Shown here: positions 73 through 18,955 of the stretch, piece by piece
Layout: every line of letters begins with the position of its first letter
How positions within the stretch are numbered: the first letter of the stretch is position 1
NCBI RefSeq assembly: GCF_025717515.1
Contig: NZ_JAJIRN010000009.1
Span: forward strand, 310,001-374,000
Length of the DNA stretch: 64,000 nucleotides
Source of the DNA: Roseateles oligotrophus
Lineage (GTDB): Bacteria > Pseudomonadota > Gammaproteobacteria > Burkholderiales > Burkholderiaceae_C
Direction: 5' to 3'
Translations under genes and position numbers: made by a program
Notes under the pieces: model-generated
Database searches by the model: none
Told to the model about the DNA's origin: nothing
Seen by the model: only the letters and a program-made list of their open reading frames with translations

Positions 73-1596
73 ATGAGCGACACAGACAGCAAGCGAATTC
101 GGCGCGTGGTCGTCGTCGGTGGCGGCAGTGCCGGCTGGATGGCGGCGGCGGCGCTGAGCACCTATCTTGGCAAGCAGGCCTCGGTGCGCCTGATCGAGTC
201 CGAGGAAATCGGCATCGTCGGCGTCGGCGAGGCCAGCGTGCCGCATATCCGGATGTTCAACCAAATGCTCGGCATTGATGAAGCCGAGTTCGTCAAGCGG
301 ACGCAGGGCACCGTCAAGCTCGGCATCCATTTTCAGGATTGGTCGCGCATCGGCGACAGCTATATCCACGGCTTCGGCGTCATCGGGCGCTCGCTCGGGC
401 CGCTGCCTTTTCATCAGTTCTGGCTGAAGCTGCGGCAGTCCGGCCGCGCGGCCCCATTGGGGGACTATTCGCTACAGACGGTGATGGCGCCCTTGTCCAA
501 GTTCATTCCAGGCGACAGCGGCGCAGCAGCGAATTCGCCCTTGGCCGACATTGCCTATGCCTACCATTTCGACGCCAGCCTGTACGCACGCTTCCTGCGG
601 GAGCTGGCGGAGCGCCGAGGCGTGCGGCGCACCGAAGGCAGAGTCGTCGCTGTGACGCAGCGCGCCGCAGACGGCTTTGTCGAATCCTTGCGACTGGCCA
701 ATGGTGAAGTCATCGAAGGCGATTTGTTCATCGATTGCTCGGGCTTTCGGGGCCTGCTGATCGAGCAGACGCTGAAAACCGGCTATGTCGATTGGTCGCA
801 TTGGCTGCCCTGCGACCGAGCGCTGGCGGTTCCTTGTGAAAGCGTGGCGCCCATCAATCCCTACACGCGCTCCACCGCACGCGCGGCGGGCTGGCAATGG
901 CGCATTCCGCTGCAGCATCGCACCGGTAACGGCTATGTGTATTCGAGCCAGTACATCGGCGACGACGAAGCCGCCGCGACGCTGATGGCAAATCTGGACG
1001 GCAAGGCGTTGGCCGAGCCTCGCTGCTTGAGCTTCACCACCGGCATGCGCAAGCAGGGCTGGAACAAGAATGTGGTCGCCCTGGGGCTGGCCAGTGGCTT
1101 TCTGGAGCCGCTGGAGTCGACCAGCATCTATCTGGTCCAGTCGGGTATCGGCCGGCTGCTGAGCCTGTTCCCCGATGCCGATTTCAATCCCTTGCTGGCC
1201 GAGCGTTTCAACCGCGAAACTGCCTTCGAATATGAGCGGATCCGAGATTTTTTGATCCTGCACTATCACGCGACCGAACGCGAGGACTCGCCGTTCTGGA
1301 ACTACTGCCGCACCATGTCCATCCCGGACAGTCTGCGCGAGACGATGGAGCTGTTCCGCTGTGATGGCCGCTACCTCCGCAACGGTGAAGACTTCTTCGC
1401 GTTGCCGAGTTGGGTGCAGGTGATGCTGGGCCAAGGCATCGTGCCGCAAAGCTACCACCCTATCGTGGACAACATGCCGGAGGACAGATTACTCGAATTC
1501 GTCGAGGGCACGCGCAGCACGCTGGCGAATGCAGTTATGGCAATGCCGGCGCACCAGGATTGGATAGACAAGCATTGGAAGGCGCCCAAGCCATGA
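73..1596 (+). CDS. Tryptophan 7-halogenase family flavoprotein
   Basis: A 507-residue protein of the flavin-dependent tryptophan halogenase family (PrnA-like), which use FADH2, oxygen and halide. Residues 11-22 form the FAD-binding GGGSAGW loop. The catalytic lysine of the family is at K82 (TVKLGIHFQDW), the WxWxIP signature is WQWRIP at 274-279, and the conserved glutamate is E348 in EPLEST. All key halogenase residues are therefore present. No signal peptide is seen, so it is cytoplasmic. It is the first gene of a glycoside hydrolase operon and overlaps the next start by ATGA. Such proteins are known beside TonB-dependent receptor and sugar loci, where their substrate is unknown; tryptophan is not assured as the substrate. 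Confidence 0.9.
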   Translation: MSDTDSKRIRRVVVVGGGSAGWMAAAALSTYLGKQASVRLIESEEIGIVGVGEASVPHIRMFNQMLGIDEAEFVKRTQGTVKLGIHFQDWSRIGDSYIHGFGVIGRSLGPLPFHQFWLKLRQSGRAAPLGDYSLQTVMAPLSKFIPGDSGAAANSPLADIAYAYHFDASLYARFLRELAERRGVRRTEGRVVAVTQRAADGFVESLRLANGEVIEGDLFIDCSGFRGLLIEQTLKTGYVDWSHWLPCDRALAVPCESVAPINPYTRSTARAAGWQWRIPLQHRTGNGYVYSSQYIGDDEAAATLMANLDGKALAEPRCLSFTTGMRKQGWNKNVVALGLASGFLEPLESTSIYLVQSGIGRLLSLFPDADFNPLLAERFNRETAFEYERIRDFLILHYHATEREDSPFWNYCRTMSIPDSLRETMELFRCDGRYLRNGEDFFALPSWVQVMLGQGIVPQSYHPIVDNMPEDRLLEFVEGTRSTLANAVMAMPAHQDWIDKHWKAPKP

Positions 1597-4220
1597 GCGC
1601 GAGAATGTTTGTCGGGCTCGTCCTGGCTGCGTTCGCAGCGTCGGCAATGGCTGCGCTGCCGGGCGAGTTTTTGATCGATAAGGGCTGGAGCTTTCGCCTG
1701 CTGCCCGGCAGTGCCGCAGCCGCCGCGCACCCGCAAGCGACAACTTGGCATGCGGCCAAGGTGCCTGGCACGGTGCATACCGATCTGTTTGCGGCCAAGC
1801 TGATTCCCGACCCCTATGTCGGCGCGCCCGAAGCCAGCCAGCAATGGATAGGCTTGGCCGATTGGGAGTACCGCACGCGCTTCGATGTGCCGCGCGCGGC
1901 GCTGGATCAGGCCCGCAGCGAGCTGCGGTTCGAAGGCCTAGACACCTTCGCCGAAGTCACTCTCAATGGCGCCCCGCTGCTGGCAGCGAACAATGCCTTC
2001 CGCAGCTGGCGTGTGCCGGTGCAGGGCCAGTTGCGCGCCACCGGCAACGAGTTGCGGATTGTGTTGCGCTCACCCATCACCAAGCTGCTGTCGCAGGTGC
2101 AGGCGATGCCGCTGAAACTGGCCGGCAACTACCCCTCGCCCTATGGCGACGAGCCGCCGGACGCGATGACCGGCAATTTCGTGCGCAAGCCCGGCTACCA
2201 CTACGGTTGGGACTGGGGCCCGCGTTATGTCACTGCCGGCATCTGGAAGCCGGTCGTGTTGCAGAGTTGGGATGCGCTGCGAATCGCCGACTTGCAGTTG
2301 CGCCAGGACCATGTCGACGCAGCGCGCGCCGAGCTCCTTGCGCTGGCGTCGGTCGAGGCGGTTCGGGATGCTTCGTTCGAACTGCGCCTGTGGCAGACCG
2401 CGCCGGACGGCCGGCGTTCGCTGGCGGCGCAGCGTCGCGCCGAGCTGCATGCCGGAGACAACCGAATCGAGCTGCCGCTGCATATTGATCGTCCTGAGCG
2501 CTGGTTTCCGAACGGCTACGGCGCACAACCGCTGTATCGCTACGAGCTTGAAGTCAGCGATGGCAAGACGACCATCGCCAAGGCCGGTACAAGGACTGGC
2601 CTGCGCAGCATCGAGTTGCGTCGCGAGCCCGACGACAAGGGTCGCAGCTTCCATTTCGTCGTCAACGGCATCCCGGTCTTTGCCAAGGGCGCAAACACCA
2701 TTCCCTTCGATATGTTCCAGCCGCGGGTCAGCAAAGCGCAATTGCGGCGCGTGCTGCAGTCGGCGCGCGATGCCAATATGAATATGCTGCGCAGTTGGGG
2801 CGGCGGCTATTACGAGAGCGCCGATTTCTTCGACCTAGCCGATGAGTTTGGCCTGCTGGTCTGGCAAGACTTCATGTTCGGCGGCGGCATGCAGCCGGCT
2901 TACGACGAGGCCTTCCGTGCCAACGTGCTCGCCGAGGCGCGCGAGCAAGTGCGGCGCCTGCGCAATCACCCCAGCCTGGGACTTTGGTGTGGCAATAACG
3001 AGGAAGAAGTGGCCTGGAAATATTGGGGTCCGGGCCAGGCGATGAAGGCCGCCGATCCGGCCTTTGCCGACAAGGTCTGGCAGGGCTATGTGCAGATGTT
3101 CGGCGTCGAGCTGCGCCGGCTCGTGGCGGAAGAGGGCGGCGGCATCGCCTACTGGGCCAGCTCGCCCGGTGACGATCTGGCCGAGCTCGCCAACACCCCC
3201 GCCAGCGGCGATATGCATTACTGGGAGGTGTGGGGCAACCCGGCCCATCCGGTGACGAAGTATCTGGAAATCACGCCGCGCTTCATGTCCGAATATGGCC
3301 TGCAGGCTTGGCCGGTGCAGCGCACGGTGGACGCCTTCGCCAAGCGCCGCGAGCAGAGCATGGCCAGCCCGGTGATAGAGGCGCATCAGAAATTCCTCGC
3401 CGGCAAGGGTAATGAGCGACTGCTGAAATACATCAATGATGAGTTCGGGCAGCCCAAGGATTTCGCCGACTTTGTCTACCTGAGCCAGGTCATGCAGGCC
3501 GAGGGTATTCAGCTGGCCGCGCTGCATCACCGTGCCAGTCGGCCGTTCACGATGGGCTCCTTGTACTGGCAGTTCAATGATGTGTGGCCGGGCGCGTCCT
3601 GGTCCAGCATCGACTGGTTCGGGCGCTGGAAGGCGCTGCAATTCCATGCACGGCGCTTCTATGCGCCGGTCGCGGTCGCCGCCACGCGGGGCGCCGCCGG
3701 CCAGACCCAGCTCAGTCTGCTCAACGACCGCACGCAGGCGCTGCGCGGCGAGCTGCGCCTGCGGGTGATGGCGCTCGACGGCAAGCTGCTGCGCGAGGAG
3801 CGCCGGCCGGTTGAACTCGCACCGCTGTCGGCATTGAGCCTGGCCGATTACGCCGATGCCGACTTGATCGGGCAAGCCGATCCGGCGACTACCGTCGCGG
3901 TGTTCGACTTGCGGGTGGACGGCGAACCGGCGTCGCGCGGCGTGGTCTATTTCAAGACCGCGAAAGAGATGCTCTGGCCCGATCCGGGCTTGCATGCGCA
4001 GCTGCGCCGCGATGGCCAGGGCTACATGCTCGAGCTCCATGCGGCAGGGCTCGCCCGCGCTCTGTGGGTCGATTTCGGGGACATCGATGCCGAGCTGTCC
4101 GACAACGCCCTGACCCTGCTACCGGGCGAGCATGTCAGCCTGCGGCTGGCGTCCAAGGCCAGCCTCGCAATGTTGCGCAAGTCCCTGCGCCTGCGCTCGA
4201 TCAATAGCCAAATTCGATGA
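1593..4220 (+). CDS. GH2 beta-mannosidase, periplasmic
   Basis: An 875-residue GH2 beta-mannosidase, which removes beta-linked mannose from the Man-beta-1,4-GlcNAc core of N-glycans or from mannans. The start at 1593 overlaps the halogenase stop (ATGA) and opens a signal peptide (MSARMFVGLVLAAFAASAMA), so the enzyme is exported; a longer upstream reading would overlap the halogenase and lose the signal. A galactose-binding-like N-domain (EVTLNG, about 95-140) is followed by a TIM barrel with the acid/base Glu in WCGNNEE and the nucleophile Glu in FMSEYGLQAWP. RSWGGGYYE and WQFNDVWPG are also typical. Its location beside a PNGase points to the N-glycan core as substrate. Confidence 0.93.
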   Translation: MSARMFVGLVLAAFAASAMAALPGEFLIDKGWSFRLLPGSAAAAAHPQATTWHAAKVPGTVHTDLFAAKLIPDPYVGAPEASQQWIGLADWEYRTRFDVPRAALDQARSELRFEGLDTFAEVTLNGAPLLAANNAFRSWRVPVQGQLRATGNELRIVLRSPITKLLSQVQAMPLKLAGNYPSPYGDEPPDAMTGNFVRKPGYHYGWDWGPRYVTAGIWKPVVLQSWDALRIADLQLRQDHVDAARAELLALASVEAVRDASFELRLWQTAPDGRRSLAAQRRAELHAGDNRIELPLHIDRPERWFPNGYGAQPLYRYELEVSDGKTTIAKAGTRTGLRSIELRREPDDKGRSFHFVVNGIPVFAKGANTIPFDMFQPRVSKAQLRRVLQSARDANMNMLRSWGGGYYESADFFDLADEFGLLVWQDFMFGGGMQPAYDEAFRANVLAEAREQVRRLRNHPSLGLWCGNNEEEVAWKYWGPGQAMKAADPAFADKVWQGYVQMFGVELRRLVAEEGGGIAYWASSPGDDLAELANTPASGDMHYWEVWGNPAHPVTKYLEITPRFMSEYGLQAWPVQRTVDAFAKRREQSMASPVIEAHQKFLAGKGNERLLKYINDEFGQPKDFADFVYLSQVMQAEGIQLAALHHRASRPFTMGSLYWQFNDVWPGASWSSIDWFGRWKALQFHARRFYAPVAVAATRGAAGQTQLSLLNDRTQALRGELRLRVMALDGKLLREERRPVELAPLSALSLADYADADLIGQADPATTVAVFDLRVDGEPASRGVVYFKTAKEMLWPDPGLHAQLRRDGQGYMLELHAAGLARALWVDFGDIDAELSDNALTLLPGEHVSLRLASKASLAMLRKSLRLRSINSQIR

Positions 4221-6685
4221 AGTTCTTCAAGCCCCCGTATCGCTCCGCCGTCTGCTGCATCGGCCTCCTGTTCTTGCTGGCCAGCTTGCCTGCTGCAGCC
4301 GCGCTGCGCAGCGTCGGCGCTGTCGTGCAGGCGATCAAGTCCAACGAGGGCTATGACCTGCGCCTGAGCAGCGGTGCGCTTGCGCGCATCAGCTTCGTTA
4401 CGCCCGACGTCGTGCGGGTGCGCATCAGCCCCAAGGCGCGTTTCGAGGCCGATAACTCTTATGCAATGGCGCAGGCGCCATCGCGGGCCAAGGCCGTAAT
4501 GGCGACGCTCAACGGCGCCACGCTGGAGTTGCGCTCCGCAAGCGGCACGCGCGTGGTGATCCGCAAGACCCCCGAGCTGGTGATCCAAATCTTTGATGCT
4601 GCCGGCCGACTCGTCAGCGCCGACGACCCGGCGCGCCCCACCACCTTCGATGTCGAGGAGGGCTCCTTCGAGACCGCCAAGCTGCGCGACGACTACGAGC
4701 TTTACTACGGCTTCGGTGAGAAAGCCTTGCCGCTGTCGCGCCATCAGCAGCAACTGGTGATGTGGAACTCGGATGTGCCCGACTACGCGCCCGGCCACGA
4801 CCCGTCCTACCAGGCCATCCCCTTCTTCATCGCGCTGCACGAGGGGCGCGGCCACGGCCTGTTCTTCAACAACAGCTGGCGCAGCTGGTTCGACATGGGC
4901 AAGACCGATCCGCAGCGCTACCGCTTCGGTTCCGCTGGCGGCGAGTTGGACTATTTTGTGTTCACCGGCGGGCCCGAGCGCAGCCCGGCGCGCGTGCTGA
5001 GTGACTACACGGCACTTACTGGCCGGGGAGCCTTGCCGCCGCTCTGGGCGCTGGGCTACCAGCAGTCGCGCTGGTCGTACAAGACGCAGGACGAGGTGCT
5101 GGGCGTCGCCCGTGAATTCCGCCAGCGCCGCATCCCGGCCGATGTGCTTTACCTCGACATCGACCACATGGATGGCTTCCGCGTCTTCACCTGGAACCCG
5201 CAAACCTTCCCGCAGCCGGGCGAGCTATTGATCACGCTGCACCAACAGGGTTTTCGTGCCGTCACCATCGTGGATCCTGGCATAAAGAAGGACGAGGGCT
5301 ATGCCATCTATCGCAGTGGCCGCGCGGCGGGCGTCTATATGCGCAATGCCGACGGGAGTGAGCTGAATGCCAAAGTTTGGCCAGGCGTCTGCGCCTTCCC
5401 TGACTTCACGTCGGCCGCCGCCCGCGACTGGTTTGGCCGCCTTTATGAGGCGCCGCTGGATCTGGGGGTCGATGGCTTCTGGAACGATATGAACGAGCCC
5501 GGCGTGTTCGCCCCCGACGGCTTTGCCAAGCCCGAGATCAGCCTCGGCCCGCAGAAGAGCTTTGCGCTCGACGCCCAGCACGCCGGCGATGGCCGCCCAG
5601 GTAGCCATGCCCGCTATCACAATGTCTACGGCATGCAGATGGCTCGCGCCAGCTTCGAGGGGCTGCGCCGGCTGCGCCCCCAGAAACGCCCGATGCTGCT
5701 GACGCGCGCCGGCTTTGCAGGCGTGCAACGCTACGCCGCCGTCTGGACCGGCGACAACTCGGCGACCTGGACGCACCTGGCCCTGACCATCCCGATGTTG
5801 ACCAATCTGTCGGTGTCGGGCGTGCCCTTCGTTGGCGCCGATGTTGGCGGCTTCATGGGCAGCCCGAGCGCCGAGCTGTACACGCGTTGGCTGCAAGCCG
5901 CTGCTCTAACGCCTTACCTACGTACCCACTCCAGTGATGTCTCGGCACCGCGCGAGCCCTGGGCCTTCGGCCCCGAGCATGAGCGCATCAACCGCCAGAT
6001 CATCGAGTTGCGCTACCGGCTGCTGCCCTACCTCTACAGCCTGTTCGAAGCGAGCGAGCGCACCGGTCTGCCGCCCATGCGCCCGCTCTGGTTCGCCTAC
6101 CCCGGCGACACGCAGGCCAGCCTCGTCGACGATCAATTCCTGCTGGGCGCCGACCTGTTGGTGGCGCCGGTGCTGCACGAAGGCCGCAGCGAGCGGCTCG
6201 TCTACTTCCCCAAGGGCGATGCCTGGCTGGATTGGGACAGCGGCCAACGCCATGAAGGCGGCAGCTTCGCCACCATCCCCGCGCCGCTGGAGCGGCTGCC
6301 GCTGTTCGTCCGCGTGGGGGCGACCGTGCCCACACAGGCGCCGGTGCAGCACACCGGCGAGATGCTGCAGTCAGCGCTGACGCTCAATGTCGCCTGGGGC
6401 GCTGCCGGCAGCAGCGATATGTTCCAGGACGCGGGCGAGGGCTACGGCTATCGCCAGGGCGCCTCGCGCACGCTACGCATGATGCAAGACGCTCAGGGAC
6501 TGCGGCTGGACATTCCACCTAACGCGGGCTTCCAGCGCGTTGCGGCGGTCGAGTTCCTCGGCCTTGAATCGGCACCGGCGCGCAGGCTGCGCGTCGCGCT
6601 GCCGGATGAGGGGGTCAAGCAGGTCCGGCCGGCGCTTGGTCAGCAGCGTCCGGCGAGCCTCGTCCCTGCAGGAGTTTCACCATGA
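4217..6685 (+). CDS. GH31 alpha-glucosidase
   Basis: An 822-residue GH31 hydrolase with a signal peptide (about residues 1-29, ending AAAA). The nucleophile is D424 in WNDMNEP and the acid/base is D513 in TGDNSATW, both intact. Before these lie the N-terminal beta-sandwich and the barrel start (WALGYQQSRWSY, 277-288). The gene starts within the beta-mannosidase stop (ATGA) and its own stop overlaps the PNGase start. GH31 includes alpha-glucosidases, alpha-xylosidases and the ER glucosidase II. In this operon a role in removing capping glucose from high-mannose N-glycans is likely, but specificity cannot be read from the sequence alone. Confidence 0.9.
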   Translation: MKFFKPPYRSAVCCIGLLFLLASLPAAAALRSVGAVVQAIKSNEGYDLRLSSGALARISFVTPDVVRVRISPKARFEADNSYAMAQAPSRAKAVMATLNGATLELRSASGTRVVIRKTPELVIQIFDAAGRLVSADDPARPTTFDVEEGSFETAKLRDDYELYYGFGEKALPLSRHQQQLVMWNSDVPDYAPGHDPSYQAIPFFIALHEGRGHGLFFNNSWRSWFDMGKTDPQRYRFGSAGGELDYFVFTGGPERSPARVLSDYTALTGRGALPPLWALGYQQSRWSYKTQDEVLGVAREFRQRRIPADVLYLDIDHMDGFRVFTWNPQTFPQPGELLITLHQQGFRAVTIVDPGIKKDEGYAIYRSGRAAGVYMRNADGSELNAKVWPGVCAFPDFTSAAARDWFGRLYEAPLDLGVDGFWNDMNEPGVFAPDGFAKPEISLGPQKSFALDAQHAGDGRPGSHARYHNVYGMQMARASFEGLRRLRPQKRPMLLTRAGFAGVQRYAAVWTGDNSATWTHLALTIPMLTNLSVSGVPFVGADVGGFMGSPSAELYTRWLQAAALTPYLRTHSSDVSAPREPWAFGPEHERINRQIIELRYRLLPYLYSLFEASERTGLPPMRPLWFAYPGDTQASLVDDQFLLGADLLVAPVLHEGRSERLVYFPKGDAWLDWDSGQRHEGGSFATIPAPLERLPLFVRVGATVPTQAPVQHTGEMLQSALTLNVAWGAAGSSDMFQDAGEGYGYRQGASRTLRMMQDAQGLRLDIPPNAGFQRVAAVEFLGLESAPARRLRVALPDEGVKQVRPALGQQRPASLVPAGVSP

Positions 6686-8463
6686 TGACAAAAACGTTTT
6701 TCGCCGTCGCAATGATCAGCCTCTGCGCTGTTACGGCGCCGTCCCTGGCTCTGGCCGAGCCCACCGAGGGTTGGAAACTGCGTTTCCAGCGCACTTACAA
6801 CGGCAAGCCGGTCGAGGGTGAGGATGCCGTTTTGCTGTTTGCCGCCAAGTCCGAGGCGCTGATCAGCTCGGAGGCGGTTCACGGCGGCAAGGCCGCGTTT
6901 CCCTTCGAGCAGACGCTGATCAAGCCGGGCATTAGCGAACTGCTTCAAGTCGCACGGCTGAACGGCGAGGAGACGATTGCCGCGCTGGACCGCGAGTCGC
7001 TGGCCAAGCAGTTGTTCGAGCTCAGCGAGGGCGAGACCAAAACCATCCTCGGCTACCGCTGCAAAAAAGCCAAGACCATGGTCAACTCCAACACCATCGA
7101 GCTTTGGTACACGAACGAGCTGCCCGCTGCGGGCGCGCCCACCGTGCTGGGCCATCAGCTAGGCCTGGTGCTGGAGTTGGTGCGCAATGGCAATTTTGTG
7201 ATCCGCGCCACCCAGATCGAACCCTTCAAGGGTCTGGATCTCCAAGCCCTGGCGCAGGGCGGCGGCAAGCTGGCCGAAGCGCAAGAAGCAGCCGCTGTCC
7301 AGCTGCTCGACGGCCTCAGCTACAAAGACCGTCTCTGGAAAAGCCGCTTCATCACCATCCCGGTCTTCCAGGACCAGATCGTCAACTTCTCCGCGCAGGA
7401 CAGCGAGCCTCGCGAGGGCGTGACCCGTTATGCCAACGGCACTGTCGCGCTGAAGACGGTGCAGCTGCCCGAGGTCCAGTCCGGCAGCCAGGTCTTTGTC
7501 GATCTGCTGGCCCGCTCCAACGGCGATGCCTACGACCGCACCGGTTCGGTGTTCGTGATTCCGCTGGGGTCAAAGAGCGATAAGAAACGCAGCTTTCTCG
7601 ACGGCCTGCAGCAAGGCGTTTCAGCCTTGCCGGCCTACCAGAATGGCAATGGCAAGACCTACCGCGGCGTGGTCGCCAGCGAGGATTACGCACCGCTGAT
7701 CGAGCTGATGCGCTTCTTCACGCCCTTTGGCGTCAAGCATTACAACCACCTCCAACTCAAGGGCAAGACCTGGCACGAGGCCGTGCCCTACCGCATGGAC
7801 ATCACCGATCTGGCCGTTCGCCTCTCGGGGCAGAAGGTGGCTGTGGGCGTCTTTATCGGCAACTACGACCAGGGCGGCCACAAGCTCGACATGAACATCA
7901 CCGTCCATCCCAATGATTCGGCGGCGGCGATGTTCTCCAAGCCACAGGAGAACGCCAAGGAGAGAAGTGGTTCGCGGCAGCTGCTGATGCCCTTGTTCAA
8001 CACCACCAATGTGATGGAGATGGCGAATCAGGACTACGCCACCATGTTCGATGTGGCCAAGGGCCTGGAAGTGAAGTTCAGCCTGGACCGCCCGCTCAAG
8101 AACGCCCGCCTGCGCTACATCACGACCGGCCATGGTGGCTGGGCCAATGGCGATGAATTTCTGCCCAAGAAAAACACCATCGTGCTGGACGGCAAACCGG
8201 TCTTTTCCTTCGTGCCCTGGCGGCAGGACTGTGGTGCTTTCCGCCTGTTCAACCCGGCTTCAGGCAATTTCAACGACGGGCTTTCTTCCTCCGATCTGAG
8301 TCGTTCCAATTGGTGCCCGGGGACCGCTACAAATCCGATCTACATTGATTTGGGCGATTTGAAGGCGGGGCGACATCGCATAGCGGTCAGGATTGCGCAG
8401 GGTGCGAAGGAGGGTGAGAGCTTCAGTGCCTGGAATGTTTCGGGCCTCTTGCAAGGCGACTGA
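6682..8463 (+). CDS. PNGase F-type peptide-N-glycosidase with extra N-terminal domain
   Basis: A 593-residue exported protein (signal peptide to about residue 25). Its C-terminal part (about 230-590) has the PNGase F fold: GDAYDRTGSVFVIP at 281-294, GHGGWANGDEF at 483-493, PWRQDCG at 512-518 and SSSDLSRSNWCPG at 535-547, all very close to Elizabethkingia PNGase F as I recall it. D285 and E492 appear to match catalytic D60 and E206 of that enzyme, by memory rather than alignment. PNGase F cuts the bond between asparagine and the first GlcNAc. Residues 26-200 are an extra domain, perhaps like the N-terminal bowl domain of PNGase F-II. It is the last gene of the operon. Confidence 0.9.
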   Translation: MMTKTFFAVAMISLCAVTAPSLALAEPTEGWKLRFQRTYNGKPVEGEDAVLLFAAKSEALISSEAVHGGKAAFPFEQTLIKPGISELLQVARLNGEETIAALDRESLAKQLFELSEGETKTILGYRCKKAKTMVNSNTIELWYTNELPAAGAPTVLGHQLGLVLELVRNGNFVIRATQIEPFKGLDLQALAQGGGKLAEAQEAAAVQLLDGLSYKDRLWKSRFITIPVFQDQIVNFSAQDSEPREGVTRYANGTVALKTVQLPEVQSGSQVFVDLLARSNGDAYDRTGSVFVIPLGSKSDKKRSFLDGLQQGVSALPAYQNGNGKTYRGVVASEDYAPLIELMRFFTPFGVKHYNHLQLKGKTWHEAVPYRMDITDLAVRLSGQKVAVGVFIGNYDQGGHKLDMNITVHPNDSAAAMFSKPQENAKERSGSRQLLMPLFNTTNVMEMANQDYATMFDVAKGLEVKFSLDRPLKNARLRYITTGHGGWANGDEFLPKKNTIVLDGKPVFSFVPWRQDCGAFRLFNPASGNFNDGLSSSDLSRSNWCPGTATNPIYIDLGDLKAGRHRIAVRIAQGAKEGESFSAWNVSGLLQGD

Positions 8464-8494: not shown

Positions 8495-8511
8495 CGTTTG
8501 TTTACTAAACG
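8495..8511. promoter_or_regulatory. Candidate LacI-family operator, upstream site
   Basis: CGTTTGTTTACTAAACG has matching outer arms (CGTTT/AAACG) and contains GTTTA-C-TAAAC. It lies about 35 bp upstream of the -35 box of the LacI operon promoter. With the palindrome at 8630-8641 it brackets that promoter, as looping LacI-type operators do. Confidence 0.45.
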
Positions 8512-8629: not shown

Positions 8630-8641
8630 TAAAACGTTTAA
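8630..8641. promoter_or_regulatory. Candidate LacI-family operator, downstream site
   Basis: TAAAACGTTTAA contains the perfect palindrome AAACGTTT with a central CG, the usual form of LacI-family operators. It lies about 50 bp downstream of the predicted transcription start and just before the leader ORF. Confidence 0.5.
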
Positions 8642-8662
8642 TAAACCGACTACCGGAGAATC

Positions 8663-10996: not shown

Positions 10997-11915
10997 CGCG
11001 CCGCTGATGCTGTGCGCCGGCGAGGCGCTGACCGACCTGATTCATCAAGGCCAGGAACAATGGGTCGCCAGGGTCGGCGGCTCGGTCTGGAACGTCGCGC
11101 GCGCGCTGGCCGCTTTGGGCGAGCGCACCGCCTTCGCCGGAGCGATCAGCCGCGACCGCTTCGGCGACGAGCTCTGGGCCGCCAGCGAAGCCGTCGGCTT
11201 GGACCTGCGCCTGCTGCAGCGCATCGACCGTTCGCCGCTGCTGGCGATCGTCGAGCAGGGCGAGCCGCCGCGCTATTTCTTCGTCGGTGACGACAGCGCC
11301 GACCTGCACTTCGACGAGCAGGCTCTGCCCGACGGTTGGGCGGGCGCGCTGCGCTGGGCCCATTTTGGCGGCATTAGCCTGGCGCGCGAGCCACTTGCCT
11401 CGCGTTTGGTGGCCATGGCCGAGCGCCTGAAGGCCCAAGGCGTTGCCATCAGCTATGACCCCAATTACCGCAACTTGATGGACGAGCGCTACACGCCGAC
11501 ACTCCATCGCATGGCGGCGCTGGCCGATCTGATCAAGGTGTCCGACGACGACCTGCGCGGCCTCTTCCCCGGCCTCGAACCGGAGGCGGCGCTTGGCCGC
11601 TTGCGCGCGCTCAACCCGCAGGCCCTGTGCCTGCTGACCTGCGGCGGGCAGGGTGCCAGCTTGTTCAGCGGCGAGCAGCGTTGCGATGCGCGTGCGCCGG
11701 TGGTGGACGTGGTGGATACGGTCGGCGCCGGCGACGCCAGCGCGGCCGGCCTGCTCTACAGCCTCAGCCGCCACCCCGATCGCCCACTGCAAGCCCACCT
11801 CCACGCGGCCTTGGCCGCCGGATCCGCAGCCTGCATGGAGTCGGGTGCCACCCCACCTCGACCTTTGGCCATGGGCCAGTTGTTCAATCTCCTTCAAGAA
11901 GAGGTTTCATCATGA
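10989..11915 (+). CDS. PfkB-family carbohydrate kinase (probable fructokinase)
   Basis: A 308-residue ribokinase/PfkB-family kinase. VGGSVWNVARALAALG (about 29-44) is the N-terminal signature and DTVGAGDASAAG near residue 240 carries the catalytic Asp and anion hole. The start at 10989 overlaps the end of the epimerase gene; the frame is open further upstream but that part lies inside the epimerase gene. Its stop overlaps the GH47 start (ATGA). By context it should make fructose 6-phosphate from the fructose produced by the AGE protein. Other ketose or hexose substrates are not excluded. Confidence 0.85.
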   Translation: MDDAPLMLCAGEALTDLIHQGQEQWVARVGGSVWNVARALAALGERTAFAGAISRDRFGDELWAASEAVGLDLRLLQRIDRSPLLAIVEQGEPPRYFFVGDDSADLHFDEQALPDGWAGALRWAHFGGISLAREPLASRLVAMAERLKAQGVAISYDPNYRNLMDERYTPTLHRMAALADLIKVSDDDLRGLFPGLEPEAALGRLRALNPQALCLLTCGGQGASLFSGEQRCDARAPVVDVVDTVGAGDASAAGLLYSLSRHPDRPLQAHLHAALAAGSAACMESGATPPRPLAMGQLFNLLQEEVSS

Positions 11916-13348
11916 CGCAGTATTTCCCATCCTTGCGCCCAGCGCTGGTCTTGCCCGCCCGTCGTATCCTGAGCGGCCTGTGTGTGGCCTTGCTGACTGC
12001 GCTGCCACTGCAGGCCCAGGCAGCGCCCATGCCGGCCTTCAAGCCCGTGAGCGAGGCCGAGTCTGCTCAGCTGGCGCAGCGCGTGAAAGAAGAAGCCCGC
12101 CACGCCTGGCACGGCTACAAGCAATATGCCTGGGGCTATGACGCACTCAAGCCGCTGAGCAAGAGCGGCCATAACTGGTACAAGAGCTCTTTGCTGATGA
12201 CGCCGGTCGACGCGCTGAGCACCCTGCTTGTGATGGGTCTGAAGGAAGAGTCCGCCGAAGCCCGCGAGCTGATTGCCAGCCAGCTGTCCTTCGACCAGGA
12301 CATGCCGGTGCAGAACTTCGAGATCACCATTCGCCTGCTCGGCGGCCTGATCTCGGCCTACCAGCTCAGCGGCGATGCCCGCCTGCTGGCCAAGGCGGAA
12401 GACCTGGGAAGGCGCCTGTTGCCGGTGTTCGATTCGCCAACCGGGCTGCCCTACACCCATGTCAATCTCCGTACTGGCAAAGTGAGCGGCACCGTCAGCA
12501 ACCCGGCCGAGACCGGCACCCTGTTGCTTGAGTTCGGCATGCTGAGCCGGCTGACCGGCCAGCCGGTCTACTTCGAGAAGGCCAAGCGCGCGCTGGTGGA
12601 AACCTACCGCCGAGCTTCGCCGGATGGGGTGGTGGGCTCGGCCATCAATGTCGAGTCCGGCAAATGGGAGCGCACCGACGCACACATCGGCGGCGGCATC
12701 GATTCCTACTACGAGTACCTGTACAAATGCTGGCGCCTGTTCGGCGACAGCGAATGCAAGGCCATGTGGGACCACAGCATCGTCGGCGTTAACAAGGTGC
12801 TGGGCGAGGACACCAAGACCGGCTTTTGGTATGGCCATGCCGACATGAACACCGGCCGCCGCACTAAGACGCAATACGGCGCACTCGACGCCTTCATGCC
12901 GGCCCTGCTGGCCCTGGGCGGAGACATGAAGCGCGCTCGCAAGCTGCAGGAGTCCAATCTGCGCATGTGGCGCCTGCACGGCATCGAGCCCGAATCGATG
13001 GACTACCGGACCATGAAGGTGCTGTCCCCCGAGTACGCGCTGCGACCCGAAATCGTCGAGTCGGCCTATTACCTGCACCAGCTCACCGGCGACACCCGCT
13101 ACCGCGCCATGGGCCGTGAGTTCTTCGAGGATTTCGTGCGCCACTGCCGCACCGAGGCGGGCTATGCGGCGCTGAAGGATGTGCGGACCAAGACGCATGA
13201 GGACTCGATGGAGAGCTTCCTGTTCGCCGAGACCTTCAAGTACTTCTACCTGCTGTTCTCACCCAAGTCGGCGCTGGACTTTGATGCCGTGACCTTCAAC
13301 ACCGAAGCCCATCCGCTGCGCTTGCCGGCGCCGGCGCCGGCCCGCTGA
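11912..13348 (+). CDS. GH47 alpha-1,2-mannosidase, exported
   Basis: A 478-residue class I alpha-mannosidase. The start at 11912 overlaps the kinase stop (ATGA) and begins a signal peptide ending near residue 33 (LQAQAAPM). Family motifs are clear: FEITIRLLGGLISAYQLSGD, GGGIDSYYEYLYK, LRPEIVESAYYLHQLTGD, MESFLFAETFKYFYLLFS and FNTEAHPL, whose Thr ligates calcium in the family. GH47 enzymes trim alpha-1,2-mannose from high-mannose N-glycans; they are common in the eukaryotic ER and Golgi and less so in bacteria. It is followed 22 bp later by the GH92 gene, giving two alpha-mannosidases with complementary linkage preference. Confidence 0.92.
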   Translation: MTQYFPSLRPALVLPARRILSGLCVALLTALPLQAQAAPMPAFKPVSEAESAQLAQRVKEEARHAWHGYKQYAWGYDALKPLSKSGHNWYKSSLLMTPVDALSTLLVMGLKEESAEARELIASQLSFDQDMPVQNFEITIRLLGGLISAYQLSGDARLLAKAEDLGRRLLPVFDSPTGLPYTHVNLRTGKVSGTVSNPAETGTLLLEFGMLSRLTGQPVYFEKAKRALVETYRRASPDGVVGSAINVESGKWERTDAHIGGGIDSYYEYLYKCWRLFGDSECKAMWDHSIVGVNKVLGEDTKTGFWYGHADMNTGRRTKTQYGALDAFMPALLALGGDMKRARKLQESNLRMWRLHGIEPESMDYRTMKVLSPEYALRPEIVESAYYLHQLTGDTRYRAMGREFFEDFVRHCRTEAGYAALKDVRTKTHEDSMESFLFAETFKYFYLLFSPKSALDFDAVTFNTEAHPLRLPAPAPAR

Positions 13349-13370: not shown

Positions 13371-15803
13371 ATGCCCAAACACTCCCTTCACCCTTGCCGG
13401 GTCGGGCTGCTGAGCCTGCTCGCAGCACTCACGCTGCCTGTTCAGGCCGCAGCCGCAGCCGCTGCGCTGCCGGTCAACACCTTCATCGGCACGCAGGACG
13501 ACGGCAACACCTTCCCCGGTGCGTCGGCGCCGTTCGGCATGATTCAGGTCAGCCCGACCGGCGAGCATTACGCCGGTTGGCGCTACAACGACACCCGCAT
13601 CCGTGGCTTCGGCCACTCCTACTTGTCGGGCGCCGGCTGCTGGGAGCAGGGCGGGCAGCTGTCGGTGTTGCCGGTCACCGGACGCATCGGCCCCGGTGGT
13701 GATTTCGACACCGCCAAGGTCGGCAGCTTCGATCACAAGCGCTATGCCGCCGAGTTCACGCATGAAGGCGAGGTCGGCCAAGCGGGTTACTACAAGGTCA
13801 AGCTGAGCAGCTATGGCGGCATCACGGCGGAAGCCACCGCGCTGACCCGCGCGGCGGCCGAGCGCTACACCTTCGCCGCGAGCACGCCGACCGGTCATCT
13901 GCTGCTCAACCTCGGCCAGGCCAACGAGAAGCACTCGGTGGTCGGCAGCGAGCTGCGCGTGCTGGATGAGCGCAGCGTCGAAGGCAAGATCACCACCAAG
14001 AGCTTCTGCGGCGGCGCCCAGTACACGACCTGGTTCCGCATGGTCTTCGACCGGCCCTTTGTCGCCCACGGTATTTGGGACGGCGCCGGCGCTTGGCCGG
14101 GCGCCCGAGGCCCAAGCCACCAGGGCGAGGCGCGCCCGCATGGCGCCTGGCTGAGCTTTGATCTGAAGGACGGCCAAGCGGTGACGGCCGTCAGCGCGAT
14201 CTCGCATGTCGATGCCGAGGGCGCGCGCGTCAATCTGCGCGCCGACGGTGTGGCCGCCGGCGGCTTGCCGCTGAGTTTCGACGCTATGCGCACGCGGGCC
14301 CAGGCCGACTGGCAGCGCGAGCTGAGCAGCGTGCGCATCGAGGGCGGCAGCACCGACGATCGCACCGTGTTCTACACCGCGCTTTATCACTCGCTGCTGC
14401 AGCCGCTGACCGGCAGCGACGCCGATGGCCGCTACCGCGGCTATGACGATGCGGTACACAGCGCCAAAGGCTGGACCTATTACGAGTTCTTCTCGCTGTG
14501 GGATACCTACCGCACGCAGAACCAGCTGCTGGCGCTGCTGCGGCCAGAGCGTGCGCGCGACATCGCCAACTCGGTGCTGAAAATCCGCGAGCAGGGCGGC
14601 TGGCTGCCACGCTGGGGCTATGCCAATTTTGAGACCAACATCATGACCGGCGACCCGGTCACGCCCTTCTTGGTTGACTTGTGGCGCTTCGGTGCGCTCA
14701 AGGGTCGTGAGCAAGAAGCCTACGCAGCGCTGCGCGAGAACGCCTTCGGGGTGCCGCCGCACCGCATCCGTGCGCAAGGCCGGGCCGGCAACCCCAGCTA
14801 TCTGAGCCATGGCTATGTCCAGTACGACCGCGGCTTTTTTTCCAAGGGCATGGACGTCGACCCGCATCATGGCGCGTCGTCCACACTGGAGTATTCGCTC
14901 GCCGACGGTTCGCTGGCCTTGATGGCCAAGGCCCTAGGCCACAGCAAGGACGCCCAAGTGCTGGCCCAGCGCGGCCTGAACTGGCGCCGTGTCTGGGACG
15001 ACAGCGTGCTCGACGCGGCCACTGGCCAGCGCGGCTTCCCGCGCCCGCGCCGCCCGGACGGCAGCTGGTTCAGCGAGCTCAATGGCGGCTATGACCCGCG
15101 CTCCGAGCGCGGCTTCCATGAGGGCACCGCCTGGCAGTACCAATGGCTGGTGCCGCAAGACATCCCCGGCCTCGTCTCGGCCATGGGCGGACAGCCCCTG
15201 GCCGCCCAACGCCTGGACTTGTTCTTCGACTACGAGGCCTTGCTGGCCGACCCGGCGGCGGCGGTGCGCAAGTCCTGGGTGGTGGGCCCGTACAGCTATT
15301 ACAGCCAGTTCCGCTACAACCCGAATAACGAGCCCGACCTGCATGCACCGTGGGTCTATACCCTGATCGGCCAACCCTGGAAGACCACGACGGTGCTGCG
15401 CGCGGCGGAGACGCTGTTCGGCAACGCGCCCAACGGCGTCACCGGTAACGACGATCTCGGCACGATGTCGGCCTGGTATTTGTTCAGTGCGCTGGGCTTG
15501 TACCCCGACATGCCGGGCAGCGGGCGCTTCTTGTTGCACGCGCCGCGCTTCGCGGTCGCCGAAATCGACCTCGGCACAGGCCGCACGCTGCGCATCGAGG
15601 CGCCCGAGGCCAAGCCCGGCGAGCCCCGTTTCGTGAAGTCGGTGAGCTTGGGCGGCCGCAGCCTCAACAAGGTGTGGCTGGATTGGGAACAGTTGCAGTC
15701 TGCCGGCAGCTTGGCGTTTAAGCTCTCGGCGCAGCCGGATATCCAGGGTTGGGGCACGCGTGCCCGCGATCTGCCCCATCCACCCGGCGGGATGACACCT
15801 TGA
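13371..15803 (+). CDS. GH92 alpha-mannosidase, exported
   Basis: An 810-residue GH92 exo-alpha-mannosidase with a signal peptide (to about residue 30). [18 protein letters not shown] (45-62), [33 protein letters not shown] and the C-terminal [16 protein letters not shown] motif with its acidic pair are family hallmarks. GH92 enzymes are calcium-dependent and remove alpha-1,2, 1,3, 1,4 or 1,6 mannose; the exact linkage cannot be told here. It sits between GH47 and the sugar permease, 55 bp before the latter. With GH47 it should reduce a high-mannose glycan to the beta-mannosyl core. Confidence 0.94.
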
Positions 15804-15858: not shown

Positions 15859-17130
15859 ATGGCAAACATGGCACCCAGCACCGCAAGCAGCGCGGCAAGA
15901 AACGCGGCGTCCGCCGCACTCCAGCAGGAAGGCGGCGCTGCCCAGAGCAACACCAGCCCGCTCGTCATCGTCACGATTCTTTTCTTCATGTGGGGCTTGA
16001 TCACCTCGTTGAACGATGTGCTGATCCCGCATCTGAAGGCGATCTACACGCTGAGCTATGTGCAGGCGATGTTGGTGCAGTTCTGTTTCTTCGGCGCCTA
16101 CTTCATCGTGTCGCTGCCGGCCGGCGCGCTGATCCGACGCATTGGCTACCAAAAAGGGGCGGTGGCCGGCTTGCTGATCGCGGCCGTCGGCTGCGCGCTG
16201 TTTTATCCCGCTTCGTCCAGCGGTTATGGCTTGTTCCTGTTCGCGTTCTTCGTGCTGGCCTCGGGGATCACCGTGCTGCAGGTGGCGGCCAACCCTTATG
16301 TGACGGTGCTTGGGGCCGCGCGCACGGCATCCAGCCGCTTGACGCTGACCCAGGCCTTCAACTCCCTGGGCACCACCATCGGCCCGGCCGTTGGCGGCCT
16401 GTTGATCCTGTCGGCCGTGGGTGCGACGGCCGATGTCGCAAGCGTGCGCGTCCCTTACCTGGGGCTGGCCGGTGCCTTGGCGCTGCTGGCCCTGTTGTTC
16501 TGGGCCGCCAAGCTGCCGCAGATCGCCGACAGCGACGATGTGGCGGTGGCCGGAGAGGGCCATGGTTCGGCCTGGGCGCATAAGCACCTGGTGCTGGGTG
16601 CCATCGGCATCTTCCTGTACGTCGGCGCGGAAGTCAGCATCGGCAGCTTCCTGGTCAACTTCCTCGGCGAGTCGCAGATTGCCGGCTTGGCACACGCCGA
16701 CGCTGCGCGTTATGTCAGCATTTACTGGGGCGGCGCGATGGTGGGCCGCTTCATCGGCTTTGTGGTGATGCGCGCGGTCAGTCCGGGCAAGACGCTGGCC
16801 TTCAACTCGCTGGCGGCAATAGCGTTGGTGCTGGCGGCCGTGTTTGGTCAGGGCAGCGTCGCGATGTGGGCCATCCTGGCTGTGGGCCTGTGCAACTCCA
16901 TCATGTTCCCGACCATCTTCAGCATGGCGCTGCATGGCCTGGGCAAGTACACGGGGCAGGGCTCGGGCATCCTGTGCATGGCCATCGTCGGCGGGGCCTT
17001 GGTGCCCTTTGCGCAAGGTGCGCTGGCCGATTCTTTGGGGGTGCAACTGTCCTTCCTGCTGCCGGCTGCCTGCTATACCTTCATCTTCTATTTCGGCGCC
17101 AAATACGCATCGATGTACGCGGCGCGTTAG
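15859..17130 (+). CDS. FucP/GluP-type sugar MFS permease
   Basis: A 423-residue major facilitator protein with about 12 membrane segments. [19 protein letters not shown] near residue 40 is the signature of the fucose/glucose/galactose:H+ symporter group, and [19 protein letters not shown] is also typical. A good ribosome binding site (AGGAG) precedes the ATG. It would carry the monosaccharides released by the exported hydrolases across the inner membrane; mannose is the likely main substrate, with glucose or GlcNAc possible. The ROK kinase follows after 23 bp. Confidence 0.9.
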
Positions 17131-17153: not shown

Positions 17154-18125
17154 ATGAAGCAGTCCAGAGATCTCGAGCCTGAAGCAGACGCTGCTCGATC
17201 CACTATTGCGCCGCGAGATGTGCTGCTTGCGGACATCGGCGGCTCTCACATTCGCCTGGCGAGGCATAGGCCAGGCGATGACTGCGAGTTGCTCGCCACG
17301 GTGCCGACACCGACGAAGGATTGGGGGCAATTCTGTGCCGCGCTCAGCGGGGCAGTTCGCGTGTTTGCGAAACCGTCGGCGGCCCTGTCCATCTCCATCG
17401 CGGGCGTCGTATCGCCGCAGACCGGCCAGTTGGTGGCGGCCAACATTCCCTGCCTGAACACCCGGTCGCTGGCCAAGGAGCTGGCGGCGCTGCTGGGTAT
17501 GCCCGTGGTGGTCACCAATGATGCGGATTGCGCGGCATTGGCGGAGGCTCGGGTGGGGGCGGGCGTCGGCCACGGCGTCGTGTTTTGTGCCGTCCTCGGC
17601 ACCGGTGTCGGGGGTGGGCTGGTCGTCGACGGGCGGCTCGTCCGGGGTGCGGGCGGCCTCACCGGCGAATGGGGGCATGGCCCCATCGTGAACGAGGCGA
17701 TGGTCCGGTCTGGCGATGGCCGCAGCGTCCGAGTGCCTCGATTCCGGTGCGGCTGCGGCATGAGCGGTTGCGCTGACACGGTCGGTGGCGCGCGCGGGCT
17801 GGAGCGGCTGCATGCCTTCTTGAGTCAGACCGATCTGAGCAGCCATCAGATTCTGGATGATTGGATGGCCGGCGAGCCCATGGCCCTTGCGACGGTTGCC
17901 GCCTATATCGAACTCATTTCGGGCCCGCTGGCACTCGTCGTCAACGTCACCGGCGCGAGCGTGGTGCCGGTGTGCGGAGGGCTGAGTCGATGCAGCGATC
18001 TCGTCAGCGCACTCGACGTGGCGGTGCGCAGGCAAATTCTGCGCAACAGCGACCGCGCCCTGGTCGTTCCAAGCCTGCTGAACGACCGGGCCGGTCTCAT
18101 CGGCGCCGCCTATGCGTACGCCTGA
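17154..18125 (+). CDS. ROK-family sugar kinase
   Basis: A 323-residue ROK kinase. The N-terminal phosphate loop is LLADIGGSHIRLA, the sugar-binding and catalytic Asp is in VTNDADCAALAE, GEWGHG binds sugar and zinc, and CGCGMSGC is the zinc motif CxCGxxGC. The start at 17154 is taken because the longer upstream frame overlaps the permease gene. No DNA-binding domain is present, so it is a kinase rather than a repressor. Glucokinase, mannokinase and GlcNAc kinase are all in this family; in this locus it would act on GlcNAc or glucose (inference). Confidence 0.88.
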   Translation: MKQSRDLEPEADAARSTIAPRDVLLADIGGSHIRLARHRPGDDCELLATVPTPTKDWGQFCAALSGAVRVFAKPSAALSISIAGVVSPQTGQLVAANIPCLNTRSLAKELAALLGMPVVVTNDADCAALAEARVGAGVGHGVVFCAVLGTGVGGGLVVDGRLVRGAGGLTGEWGHGPIVNEAMVRSGDGRSVRVPRFRCGCGMSGCADTVGGARGLERLHAFLSQTDLSSHQILDDWMAGEPMALATVAAYIELISGPLALVVNVTGASVVPVCGGLSRCSDLVSALDVAVRRQILRNSDRALVVPSLLNDRAGLIGAAYAYA

Positions 18126-18142
18126 TCTCACCTGATCTCACC
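18121..18142 (+). repeat. Tandem 10-bp repeat at the ROK/CutC junction
   Basis: CCTGATCTCA occurs twice head to tail, followed by CC. The first copy contains the stop codon of the ROK gene, and the second repeats a TGA 10 bases later. It looks like a small slippage duplication. Confidence 0.8.
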
Positions 18143-18169
18143 CGAATAGACGAGCGAGCGAGCAAGCCG

Positions 18170-18955
18170 ATGAGCCTCCTGGAAGTCTGTGTCGATGATG
18201 TCGCGGGGTTGAACGCGGCGATTCAAGGCGGCGCCGACCGCATCGAGTTGTGCAGCAGCTTGGCAATAGGGGGCCTCACGCCCTCGGCCGGGTTGATGGC
18301 CGAGGCCAGCCATCATTCGGTACCCGTGGTCGCACTGATTCGCCCAAGAAGCGGTGGCTTCCTGTACTCCGCGGCCGAAGAGCGGGTGATGTTGCGTGAC
18401 ATCGAGTTGGCCGCCGAGCTGGGCCTTGCCGGTGTCGCCATCGGTGCCTTGACCCGCGAAGGCTCACTCGACCTCGCCATGCTCGGTCGGCTGGCAAGGC
18501 GCGCCGAAGGACTCCAGTTGACGCTGCACCGCGCCTTCGATCTTGTGCGCGACCAAACGACAGCGTTGGAGGAAGCAATTTCCCTGGGCTTTCACCGAAT
18601 CCTCAGTTCGGGTGGTGCGCCGAGCGCGCCTGCCGGCGCAGCCCAACTCGCCTCTTTGGTCGAGCAAAGCCGGAGTCGAATCCAGATCCTGGCCGGCAGC
18701 GGCATCAACTCCGAGAACGTGGCGGAGCTCTTGTTCTCGACGGGCGTGCAGGAGGTACATGCTTCATGTCGCACCCTTGAGCTCGAGCCGGCGCCTGAAT
18801 TGCTGGCGTTCGGATTTGCAGGACCGTCTTGTCGAGCCACCTCGGCCATGGTGGTACGGGCCCTCAAGCTGTGCATCCTTGAGCATGGCCAGAACGGGAA
18901 CAGGCCGCCCTTCCATCTGCCCACGCATAGAGTGAGCCGGCGAGAAGGAGAGTGA
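18170..18955 (+). CDS. cutC: CutC family protein
   Basis: A 261-residue CutC-family TIM barrel. LEVCVDDVAGLNAAIQGGAD, RIELCSSLAIGGLTPS, RPRSGGF, TLHRAFD, ILSSGG and HASCR are the family's conserved strands. CutC was named for copper homeostasis in E. coli, but that role has been disputed and the family often sits among glycan-degradation genes. Here it ends the operon, 44 bp after the ROK kinase. The start at 18170 is chosen since the longer frame overlaps the kinase gene. A role in sugar or aminosugar metabolism is an inference from context only. Confidence 0.88.
   Translation: MSLLEVCVDDVAGLNAAIQGGADRIELCSSLAIGGLTPSAGLMAEASHHSVPVVALIRPRSGGFLYSAAEERVMLRDIELAAELGLAGVAIGALTREGSLDLAMLGRLARRAEGLQLTLHRAFDLVRDQTTALEEAISLGFHRILSSGGAPSAPAGAAQLASLVEQSRSRIQILAGSGINSENVAELLFSTGVQEVHASCRTLELEPAPELLAFGFAGPSCRATSAMVVRALKLCILEHGQNGNRPPFHLPTHRVSRREGE

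Follow-up and report, generated by a model that had tools for sequence, protein, structure and literature searches.

Here, we describe a locus in Roseateles oligotrophus whose genes, judged from their sequence, very probably form a locally regulated utilisation system for high-mannose N-glycans. It lies in and directly upstream of a stretch of 64,000 nucleotides (the window; bases 310001-374000 of contig C55, in a 5.76 Mb genome rated 100% complete). The locus comprises 13 genes on the + strand, a count that includes a TonB-dependent receptor gene immediately 5' of the window, and their order is receptor, halogenase-like protein, glycoside hydrolase family 2 (GH2), GH31, peptide-N-glycosidase (PNGase), LacI, AGE, PfkB, GH47, GH92, MFS, ROK and CutC (Table 1). 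After CutC, the gyrB, dnaN and dnaA genes follow on the opposite strand.

Table 1. Features of the locus (window positions, except for the receptor)
Feature	Position	Strand	Evidence or remark
TonB-dependent receptor	G000:C55:306855-309962 (L002:16855-19962)	+	outside window, directly upstream
Halogenase family protein (Trp_halogenase), flavin-dependent type	73..1596	+	PF04820 670 bits
GH2 exo-beta-mannosidase, Sec-type N-terminus	1593..4220	+	Glyco_hydro_2_N2 181 bits, Ig_mannosidase 60
GH31 alpha-glucosidase-like enzyme	4217..6685	+	Pfam GH31 407 bits
Peptide-N-glycosidase F, type II, Sec-type N-terminus	6682..8463	+	N-glycanase_N 194 bits, N-glycanase_C 175, PNGase_F-II_N 187
Operator-like copy 1, GTTTACTAAAC	8500..8510	.	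GTTTAnTAAAC motif
Promoter-like TTGACG-17-TATAAA	8544..8572	+	between two operator copies
Operator-like copy 2, GTTTAATAAAC	8636..8646	.	136 bp after copy 1
Short leader frame, 22 codons	8663..8731	+	TGA overlaps LacI GTG start
LacI-family regulator	8728..9717	+	family search
AGE-family D-mannose isomerase-like enzyme	9755..10996	+	AGE epimerase/isomerase 364 bits
PfkB-family sugar kinase	10989..11915	+	PfkB 125 bits
GH47 alpha-1,2-mannosidase, Sec-type N-terminus	11912..13348	+	Pfam 420 bits, catalytic motifs kept
GH92 exo-alpha-mannosidase, Sec-type N-terminus	13371..15803	+	Pfam 479 bits
GluP/FucP/NagP-like MFS sugar permease	15859..17130	+	MFS 73 bits
ROK sugar kinase	17154..18125	+	ROK 139 bits
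CutC-family TIM barrel	18170..18955	+	Pfam CutC 245 bits; last locus gene

Enzymes of the locus and a proposed pathway

The starts of the GH2, PfkB, GH47, ROK and CutC genes given in Table 1 are those preferred from the reading frames. By these starts, neighbouring genes either overlap by 4-8 nt (GH2, GH31 and PNGase each begin 4 nt inside the end of the preceding gene) or are separated by 22-55 nt, with two larger gaps, one of 110 nt separating the halogenase from the receptor and one of 264 nt ahead of LacI. Given this short spacing, two operons around the LacI gene, as the first-pass annotation of the window had proposed, are a fair description. No internal stop was found in any of the 13 reading frames, and all 11 glycosidase and PNGase motifs searched for are present. 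A simple hydropathy test, judged by eye, indicated Sec-type N-termini in GH2, GH31, PNGase, GH47, GH92 and the receptor; none was seen in AGE, PfkB, ROK or CutC.

Pfam cut-offs were used to accept the families and NCBIfam equivalog cut-offs for finer names. All enzymes named in the first-pass annotation were recovered above the Pfam cut-offs; its list omitted the receptor, which lies outside the window, the halogenase gene (73-1596, not a glycan enzyme) and CutC. The GH2 protein is closest to the beta-mannosidase 6bye (944 bits, with the GNNE and SEYG motifs kept), a Xanthomonas enzyme. The GH47 protein carries FE.TIR, DSYYEY, LRPE.VES and NTEAHP, presumably the catalytic acids and the calcium-binding threonine; it matches its family member 4ayo, a Caulobacter mannosidase, with 261 bits and human endoplasmic reticulum (ER) mannosidase I about equally well (259 bits). 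GH92 matches the solved structure 7zgm with 318 bits. In the PNGase, a PNGase_F-II_N domain stands ahead of the two PNGase F domains, which defines the F-II subtype; the protein scores 632 bits against PNGF-II (4r4z) over residues 31-592 of 593, and 420 bits against the PNGase 7zgn. A review (PMC10154615) gives N-glycans as the only substrates of the PNGases that have been characterised; PNGF-II, it states, tolerates core alpha-1,3- and alpha-1,6-fucose but has a strong preference for denatured protein.

The top-ranked match of the GH31 protein is 9kz6, with 522 bits summed over three stretches, the best single one giving 296. The nearest single-domain solved match of the GH31 protein is 5djw, named alpha-glucosidase II (425 bits), and other solved matches include neutral alpha-glucosidase AB (378-399 bits), 6jr6 (379), 2g3m (359) and lysosomal enzymes (322); the best NCBIfam model is MalA (486 bits, below its cut-off of 800). 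This enzyme may act on glucosylated N-glycans, and a glucosidase II-like GH31 together with an ER-mannosidase-like GH47 would mirror the trimming of glycans in the ER. The best NCBIfam matches of AGE, PfkB and ROK are D-mannose isomerase (237 bits, cut-off 600), fructokinase (128 bits, cut-off 450) and N-acetylglucosamine kinase (157 bits, cut-off 380), all below cut-off; the permease exceeds that of the gluP subfamily model (371 bits, cut-off 203).

The locus thus holds a releasing enzyme, which is of the PNGase F-II type by sequence, an outer-membrane importer (the receptor, whose gene ends 38 nt before the window edge) and both alpha- and beta-mannosidases with their catalytic motifs (GH47, GH92 and GH2). 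A hexosaminidase for chitobiose was not found among the 13 genes; in known N-glycan systems this enzyme is not always encoded in the same locus. From the gene families, their order and the catalytic motifs, all observed directly, we infer the substrates, the localisation of the proteins and the order of steps as follows. PNGase F-II would release the glycan from asparagine, and the receptor would carry it into the periplasm. GH31 would trim terminal glucose, GH47 would take off alpha-1,2-mannoses and GH92 further alpha-mannoses, and GH2 would remove the beta-mannose, leaving mannose and chitobiose. Mannose would be taken up by the MFS permease and converted to fructose by AGE, and PfkB would phosphorylate the fructose. 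Family searches, solved structures and the comparison of genomes leave the use of high-mannose N-glycans, to which the first-pass annotation had also assigned these genes, as the best reading of the locus.

Operator-like sites upstream of LacI and the receptor

The motif GTTTAnTAAAC was read from the sequence after a scan for even-centred (CG-centred) palindromes and was then tested. The even-centred scan itself gave one palindrome common to L008 and L010 (two of the related loci, L004-L020, described below) upstream of the receptor and none shared by the window and its relatives. Two exact copies of the odd-centred motif were observed in the window, as against 0.0 exact and 0.15 one-mismatch sites predicted by a Markov model. 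The genome contains three exact sites in all, at window positions 8500 and 8636 and at C55:306459 upstream of the receptor, where a partner with one mismatch is present at C55:306582. In both regions, that of LacI and that of the receptor, a TTGA-TATAAA promoter-like site lies between the copies.

The arrangement is conserved. A pair of sites, each with at most one mismatch, was found upstream of LacI in 8 of 8 relatives (L004-L007, L009, L011, L012 and L020), spaced by 135-139 bp in seven and by 77 bp in L020, and upstream of the receptor in all six relatives in which this region was read (L008, L010, L066, L068, L069 and L070; L066 and L007 are one genome), the receptor-side spacing being 121-124 bp. 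Of the 8 LacI-side relatives, 5 show the promoter-like pattern between the copies, as do 6 of the 6 receptor-side ones, and an additional copy with one mismatch precedes GH47 in L008 and L010. An operator pair also precedes a second LacI gene of Duganella (L012), whose product is 59% identical to the window LacI; GH92 and GH97 genes lie behind this pair (L012:16333-21410).

Some observations count against the reading of the locus as locally regulated. An exact search of the genome with a reversed control pattern gave 4 sites, as compared with 3 for GTTTAnTAAAC, and with one mismatch allowed the motif has 18 sites and the control 91. The number of exact sites is thus not unusual by itself, and the argument rests on their placing and conservation. 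Moreover, in L009, L012 and L020 no promoter-like pattern was seen between the two sites, and neither an operator site nor a LacI gene occurs in the stretch read of L019 (Roseateles saccharophilus). The sites might belong to another regulator, with LacI acting elsewhere; the pairing of LacI with the operator is a prediction, and an 11-bp odd-centred palindrome differs from the textbook LacI-family operator. We consider this very unlikely, as the exact sites are confined to this locus, accompany the LacI orthologue in 8 of 8 loci and precede the Duganella paralogue as well. Six Xanthomonadaceae loci, with LacI proteins only 30-33% identical to that of the window, have none even when one mismatch is allowed.

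In GalR repression, two operators about 114 bp apart flank the promoter; the pairs found here lie around promoter-like sites at the spacings given above. LacI would repress both operons through operator pairs around their promoters, possibly by looping as in GalR, and the operators predict a regulon of a single locus. A short leader frame of 13-38 codons was found between operator 2 and LacI in the window and in 8 relatives. It is preceded by a ribosome site of the GGAG type, and its TGA stop overlaps the start of LacI. Since the LacI starts of the relatives were picked by this overlap and the leader starts by hand, the pattern is suggestive; its simplest use would be translational coupling.

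Relatives of the locus and known systems

A GH47 profile scan of genome contigs gave 17 related loci (L004-L020). The four most similar, which agree with the first-pass assignment to a betaproteobacterium, are those of Burkholderiales bacterium PBB2, a metagenome-assembled genome (MAG), Paucibacter DJ2R-2, a Rubrivivax MAG and Paucibacter Y2R2-4. The first-pass annotation did not recognise this gene set and order and had called for a search in related genomes. Paucibacter Y2R2-4 (L007) keeps the order GH2-GH31-PNGase-LacI-AGE-PfkB-GH47-GH92-MFS, and the set is not unique, since four other sampled genomes of the genus also contain PNGase, GH47 and CutC. Extra DNA separates PNGase from LacI in L004 (about 5 kb) and L005 (about 6-7 kb or more). 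Inserts at this place in two relatives hold AAA/methyltransferase and AIPR genes (L068:48-1301; L069:1385-3043), presumably of the kind seen in phage-defence islands.

We also used a matched set of 59 genomes, including that of the window and comprising 18 of the same genus. PNGase was found in 5 of the 59, all of them among these 18, GH47 in the same five, and CutC within the genus again in these five, a coincidence of PNGase and CutC with a chance of 1 in 8568 if the two were independent. In all five genomes the ROK-CutC pair is linked to the locus. It lies 3' of the permease in the window, and in G019, G025, G028 and G029 it is divergent and upstream of the receptor (in G019 the receptor is partly visible, at a contig end), so that two different positions are represented. 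The outer neighbours on the CutC side are gyrB in the window, SSB in G029, a pyridoxal phosphate (PLP)-dependent decarboxylase in G025 and a TruD region in G028 and G019. As ROK-CutC is retained while these neighbours differ, the locus seems to move as a unit. In the window the locus abuts gyrB-dnaN-dnaA (18955-24602), and a gyrB match was found in none of the stretches of the 17 relatives; the locus may therefore adjoin the replication origin only in this genome. No match to ROK or CutC was found in the stretches L008-L020, which cover part of each genome.

Several observations weigh against the N-glycan reading. In six loci, three of Massilia and one each of Telluria, Duganella and a Burkholderiaceae MAG, receptor, GH47 and GH92 genes are all present, with GH2 in five and LacI-AGE-PfkB in four, and their genomes contain no PNGase match. 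These genera thus hold core parts of the set without a PNGase match, and free glycans or a different mannoside may be what the core is used on. Of 18 genomes searched with PF09113 (PNGase), 7 gave a match, two of these being weak and from Luteimonas. Fucosidase, xylosidase and hexosaminidase families were not found among the 13 genes, and the specific names of AGE, PfkB, ROK, GH31 and NagB-II (see below) are below the NCBIfam equivalog cut-offs. The five PNGase-positive genomes may also be related, in which case the co-occurrence does not represent five independent events.

These PNGase-less loci, whose receptors are 79-80% identical to that of the locus, are what one would expect if the core served yeast or fungal alpha-mannan, mannoprotein or free plant N-glycans, with PNGase as a lineage-specific addition. 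We regard this as improbable. It is not obvious what a GH2 beta-mannosidase would do on alpha-mannan, and the members of GH47 form a narrow family, the alpha-1,2-mannosidases of N-glycans; moreover, GH76 and GH99 were not seen among the scanned genes, the whole genome not having been searched for these two families.

The nix and nag clusters of Xanthomonas campestris were reportedly described by Boulanger (2010) and Dupoiron (2015). The nix cluster combines a TonB-dependent receptor with a row of N-glycan glycosidases, as here, and the nag cluster for N-acetylglucosamine (GlcNAc) is separate from it, again as here (passages of PMC5700972). However, nix also encodes an alpha-fucosidase (NixE) and a beta-galactosidase (NixL), and neither a fucosidase family nor a GH35-type family was found among the 13 genes; conversely, the same passages on nix name no PNGase, GH31, GH47, isomerase, fructokinase, LacI or ROK-CutC. 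The likeness to the Bacteroides systems for high-mannose and plant N-glycans lies in an extracellular releasing enzyme, demannosylation modelled after import and GH92 enzymes, and the difference in the single operon of B. thetaiotaomicron with GH18 and three GH92 genes, as against one GH92 with GH47, GH31 and PNGase here (PMC10154615). In the GH47 loci of Lysobacter, Luteimonas and Vulcaniibacterium (L013-L018), GH92, LacI, GH2 and GH47 are clustered in 6 of 6, MFS and AGE occur in 4 of 6 and PfkB in 3 of 6; these loci differ from ours in gene order, in a LacI only 30-33% identical and in having neither GTTTAnTAAAC nor a PNGase match in the stretches read. The locus thus appears to be a further form of already known N-glycan utilisation systems.

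The halogenase-like protein is closest to the solved structures 9luq (543 bits), 6y1w (536) and 6frl (477). It contains GGGSAGW, K82, WQWRIP and LEPLES, which presumably correspond to the GxGxxG, active-site Lys, WxWxIP and active-site Glu of flavin-dependent halogenases. Three halogenase-family genes were seen in the genome (window 73-1596, L002:3640-5187 and L029:18529-19971), each adjoining a TonB receptor, a glycosidase or a GlcNAc locus; of the four motifs as written, two are missing from the L002 copy. Further upstream of the receptor, a cluster of GH1, glucokinase, MFS and GH5 genes (L002:9009-14221) is probably for beta-glucosides.

A proposed GlcNAc branch and CutC

A profile search found no GH20 match in this genome (control genomes match in 4 of 14). 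Since GH20 is present in the genomes of 13 of the 17 relatives, its absence is not a property of the locus. The first-pass annotation, which had noted no GH20, expected chitobiose to be handled elsewhere, and a suitable gene row was indeed found on a separate contig, C23: a GntR/UTRA regulator, NagA (264 bits, cut-off 226), NagB-II (277 bits, below the cut-off of 430), a GH3 protein (224 bits against a hexosaminidase model with cut-off 207), an AmpG-like permease (145 bits, cut-off 350), a protein unmatched in Pfam, a HGSNAT-type protein and Cupin_8, with a halogenase gene next to the row on the opposite strand. This operon could take over chitobiose, which would pass through the AmpG-like permease, the GH3 enzyme (without a signal peptide), NagA and NagB-II. 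The genome has two further GH3 genes. One matches NagZ (446 bits) and is likely the housekeeping NagZ; the other adjoins a phosphotransferase system (PTS) on contig C4. A route for chitobiose via this PTS was dropped, because the PTS is of the glucose type (683 bits, cut-off 647; 510 bits against the GlcNAc PTS model, cut-off 553) and its GH3 neighbour is best matched by an arabinopyranosidase model (415 bits, far below the cut-off of 1300).

No GlcNAc kinase was seen among the C23 genes scanned, other kinases of the genome not having been surveyed; the ROK kinase of the window is thus a candidate GlcNAc kinase for the chitobiose branch. By eye, an operon resembling those for N-acetylgalactosamine (SIS, a second ROK and a tagatose-bisphosphate aldolase-like protein; L030:3579-7025) lies about 50 kb upstream on the contig of the locus, with a second NagA-like match near it.

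The last gene of the locus is a member of the CutC family by sequence (PF03932) and by fold. This family has human members, and its copper role is weakly established. CutC occurs in 7 of 369 genomes of the class, that of the window included; a protein list also contains it in other Paucibacter and Roseateles species, and in the matched set two genomes of other genera have it at 42-43% identity. Foldseek gave 1140 matches at E 0.001 or better; among the matches listed, those beyond CutC itself are mostly phosphate-binding TIM barrels, a resemblance that names no reaction, as the fold is very common.

In order to view CutC in other surroundings, we compared it by tblastn with plasmid records, a biased sample; 64 matched, and 22 places were read, 7-12 kb on each side, chosen by annotation, by genus and, for Persicobacter, by a PNGase hit (P. 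psychrovividus was reached through this hit). Ten contain an explicit enzyme of amino-sugar or N-glycan use. In Persicobacter JZB09 and P. psychrovividus, a SusC-like receptor, SusD, CutC and PNGase occur together (the receptor of the latter was not scanned), with CutC-PNGase gaps of 7 and 12 nt and, in P. psychrovividus, GH92 nearby. In two Hymenobacter, glycosylasparaginase is directly 5' of CutC and GH92 is near. On pSymB of S. meliloti, amidase-ROK-CutC stands beside nagA, SIS and an N-acetylglucosamine kinase. The neighbours are a hexosaminidase in Paracoccus, nagA in Sphingomonas, nagA, nagB and GH20 in Kozakia, nagB and GH20 in Loktanella, and GH20 in Rhizobium SSA_523. Six places are intermediate: four have only a BadF-type kinase (Asticcacaulis, two Pseudoalteromonas and Sinorhizobium K101), and two show weak links, namely a receptor, an amidohydrolase and a PTS in Novosphingobium and a ROK gene 4 kb off in Embleya. 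In Asticcacaulis, CutC lies 3' of a halogenase-family gene (L081:5389-6921), beside a TonB receptor and GH2. No link to amino-sugar or N-glycan genes was found in the remaining six (Parabacteroides, two Enterococcus, Cetobacterium, Entomospira and Salmonella).

At identities to the window CutC of at least 42%, 9 of 13 listed places have an explicit enzyme, and below this line, which was drawn after the data had been seen, 0 of 8 have one, two of them with a BadF kinase (P. psychrovividus has no listed identity). For eight linked records, control stretches 80-100 kb off were scored for nagA, nagB, GH20, glycosylasparaginase, PNGase, GH92, ROK and BadF, with a result of 0 of 8, while 7 of the 8 stretches around CutC hold an explicit enzyme (Fisher p 0.0014, which is descriptive only because the records were picked after the links had been seen). 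The controls held one cut anhydro-N-acetylmuramic acid (anhydro-MurNAc) kinase, one N-acetylmuramoyl-alanine amidase and, in two, other glycosidases.

It could be argued that ROK and CutC are passengers beside the locus and that CutC is a copper-homeostasis protein, as NCBIfam and the record annotations consulted call it; the six unlinked places, where CutC stands among unrelated genes, would fit this, as would an Embleya CutC neighbour that matches a domain named NosD, periplasmic copper-binding. However, no copper gene was found among the genes scanned beside ROK-CutC in the five genomes, the pair stays with the locus at two positions and next to at least four different outer neighbours, and in other groups the genes linked to CutC include those for PNGase, glycosylasparaginase or GlcNAc use. 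Moreover, the copper proteomes of betaproteobacteria have been surveyed, and there CutC is described as poorly characterised and as missing from the majority of genomes or present in few copies (PMC6769254). We regard this alternative as rather unlikely. The window CutC is set apart within its family by its N-glycan and GlcNAc context: within the genus its branch is consistently linked to such genes, and among the places read the link is common. We tentatively propose, short of calling it probable, that this branch is a cytosolic phosphate-binding TIM-barrel enzyme of GlcNAc or N-glycan catabolism and not a copper protein. Its substrate would be GlcNAc, GlcNAc-6-phosphate or the glycosylamine set free by PNGase and glycosylasparaginase, and it would work alongside a kinase of the ROK or BadF type. 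In the pathway, CutC would be a further cytosolic enzyme of the GlcNAc branch. Judged by titles, and with subscription journals thinly covered, the literature gave no title on CutC in amino-sugar use, on this locus or on halogenases in glycan loci.

The locus would give a betaproteobacterium a compact N-glycan pathway. In it, enzymes related to the two families that trim glycans in the ER, GH31 and GH47, seem to serve nutrition. CutC is its surprising part, the rest being a variant of known systems, and the most important point of the locus is that the context of CutC offers a concrete biochemical hypothesis for the CutC family. Human CUTC is 38-40% identical to the window CutC, just below the level at which the amino-sugar link was seen; if the hypothesis is true, human CUTC might be a candidate for the salvage of GlcNAc from cytosolic free N-glycans.

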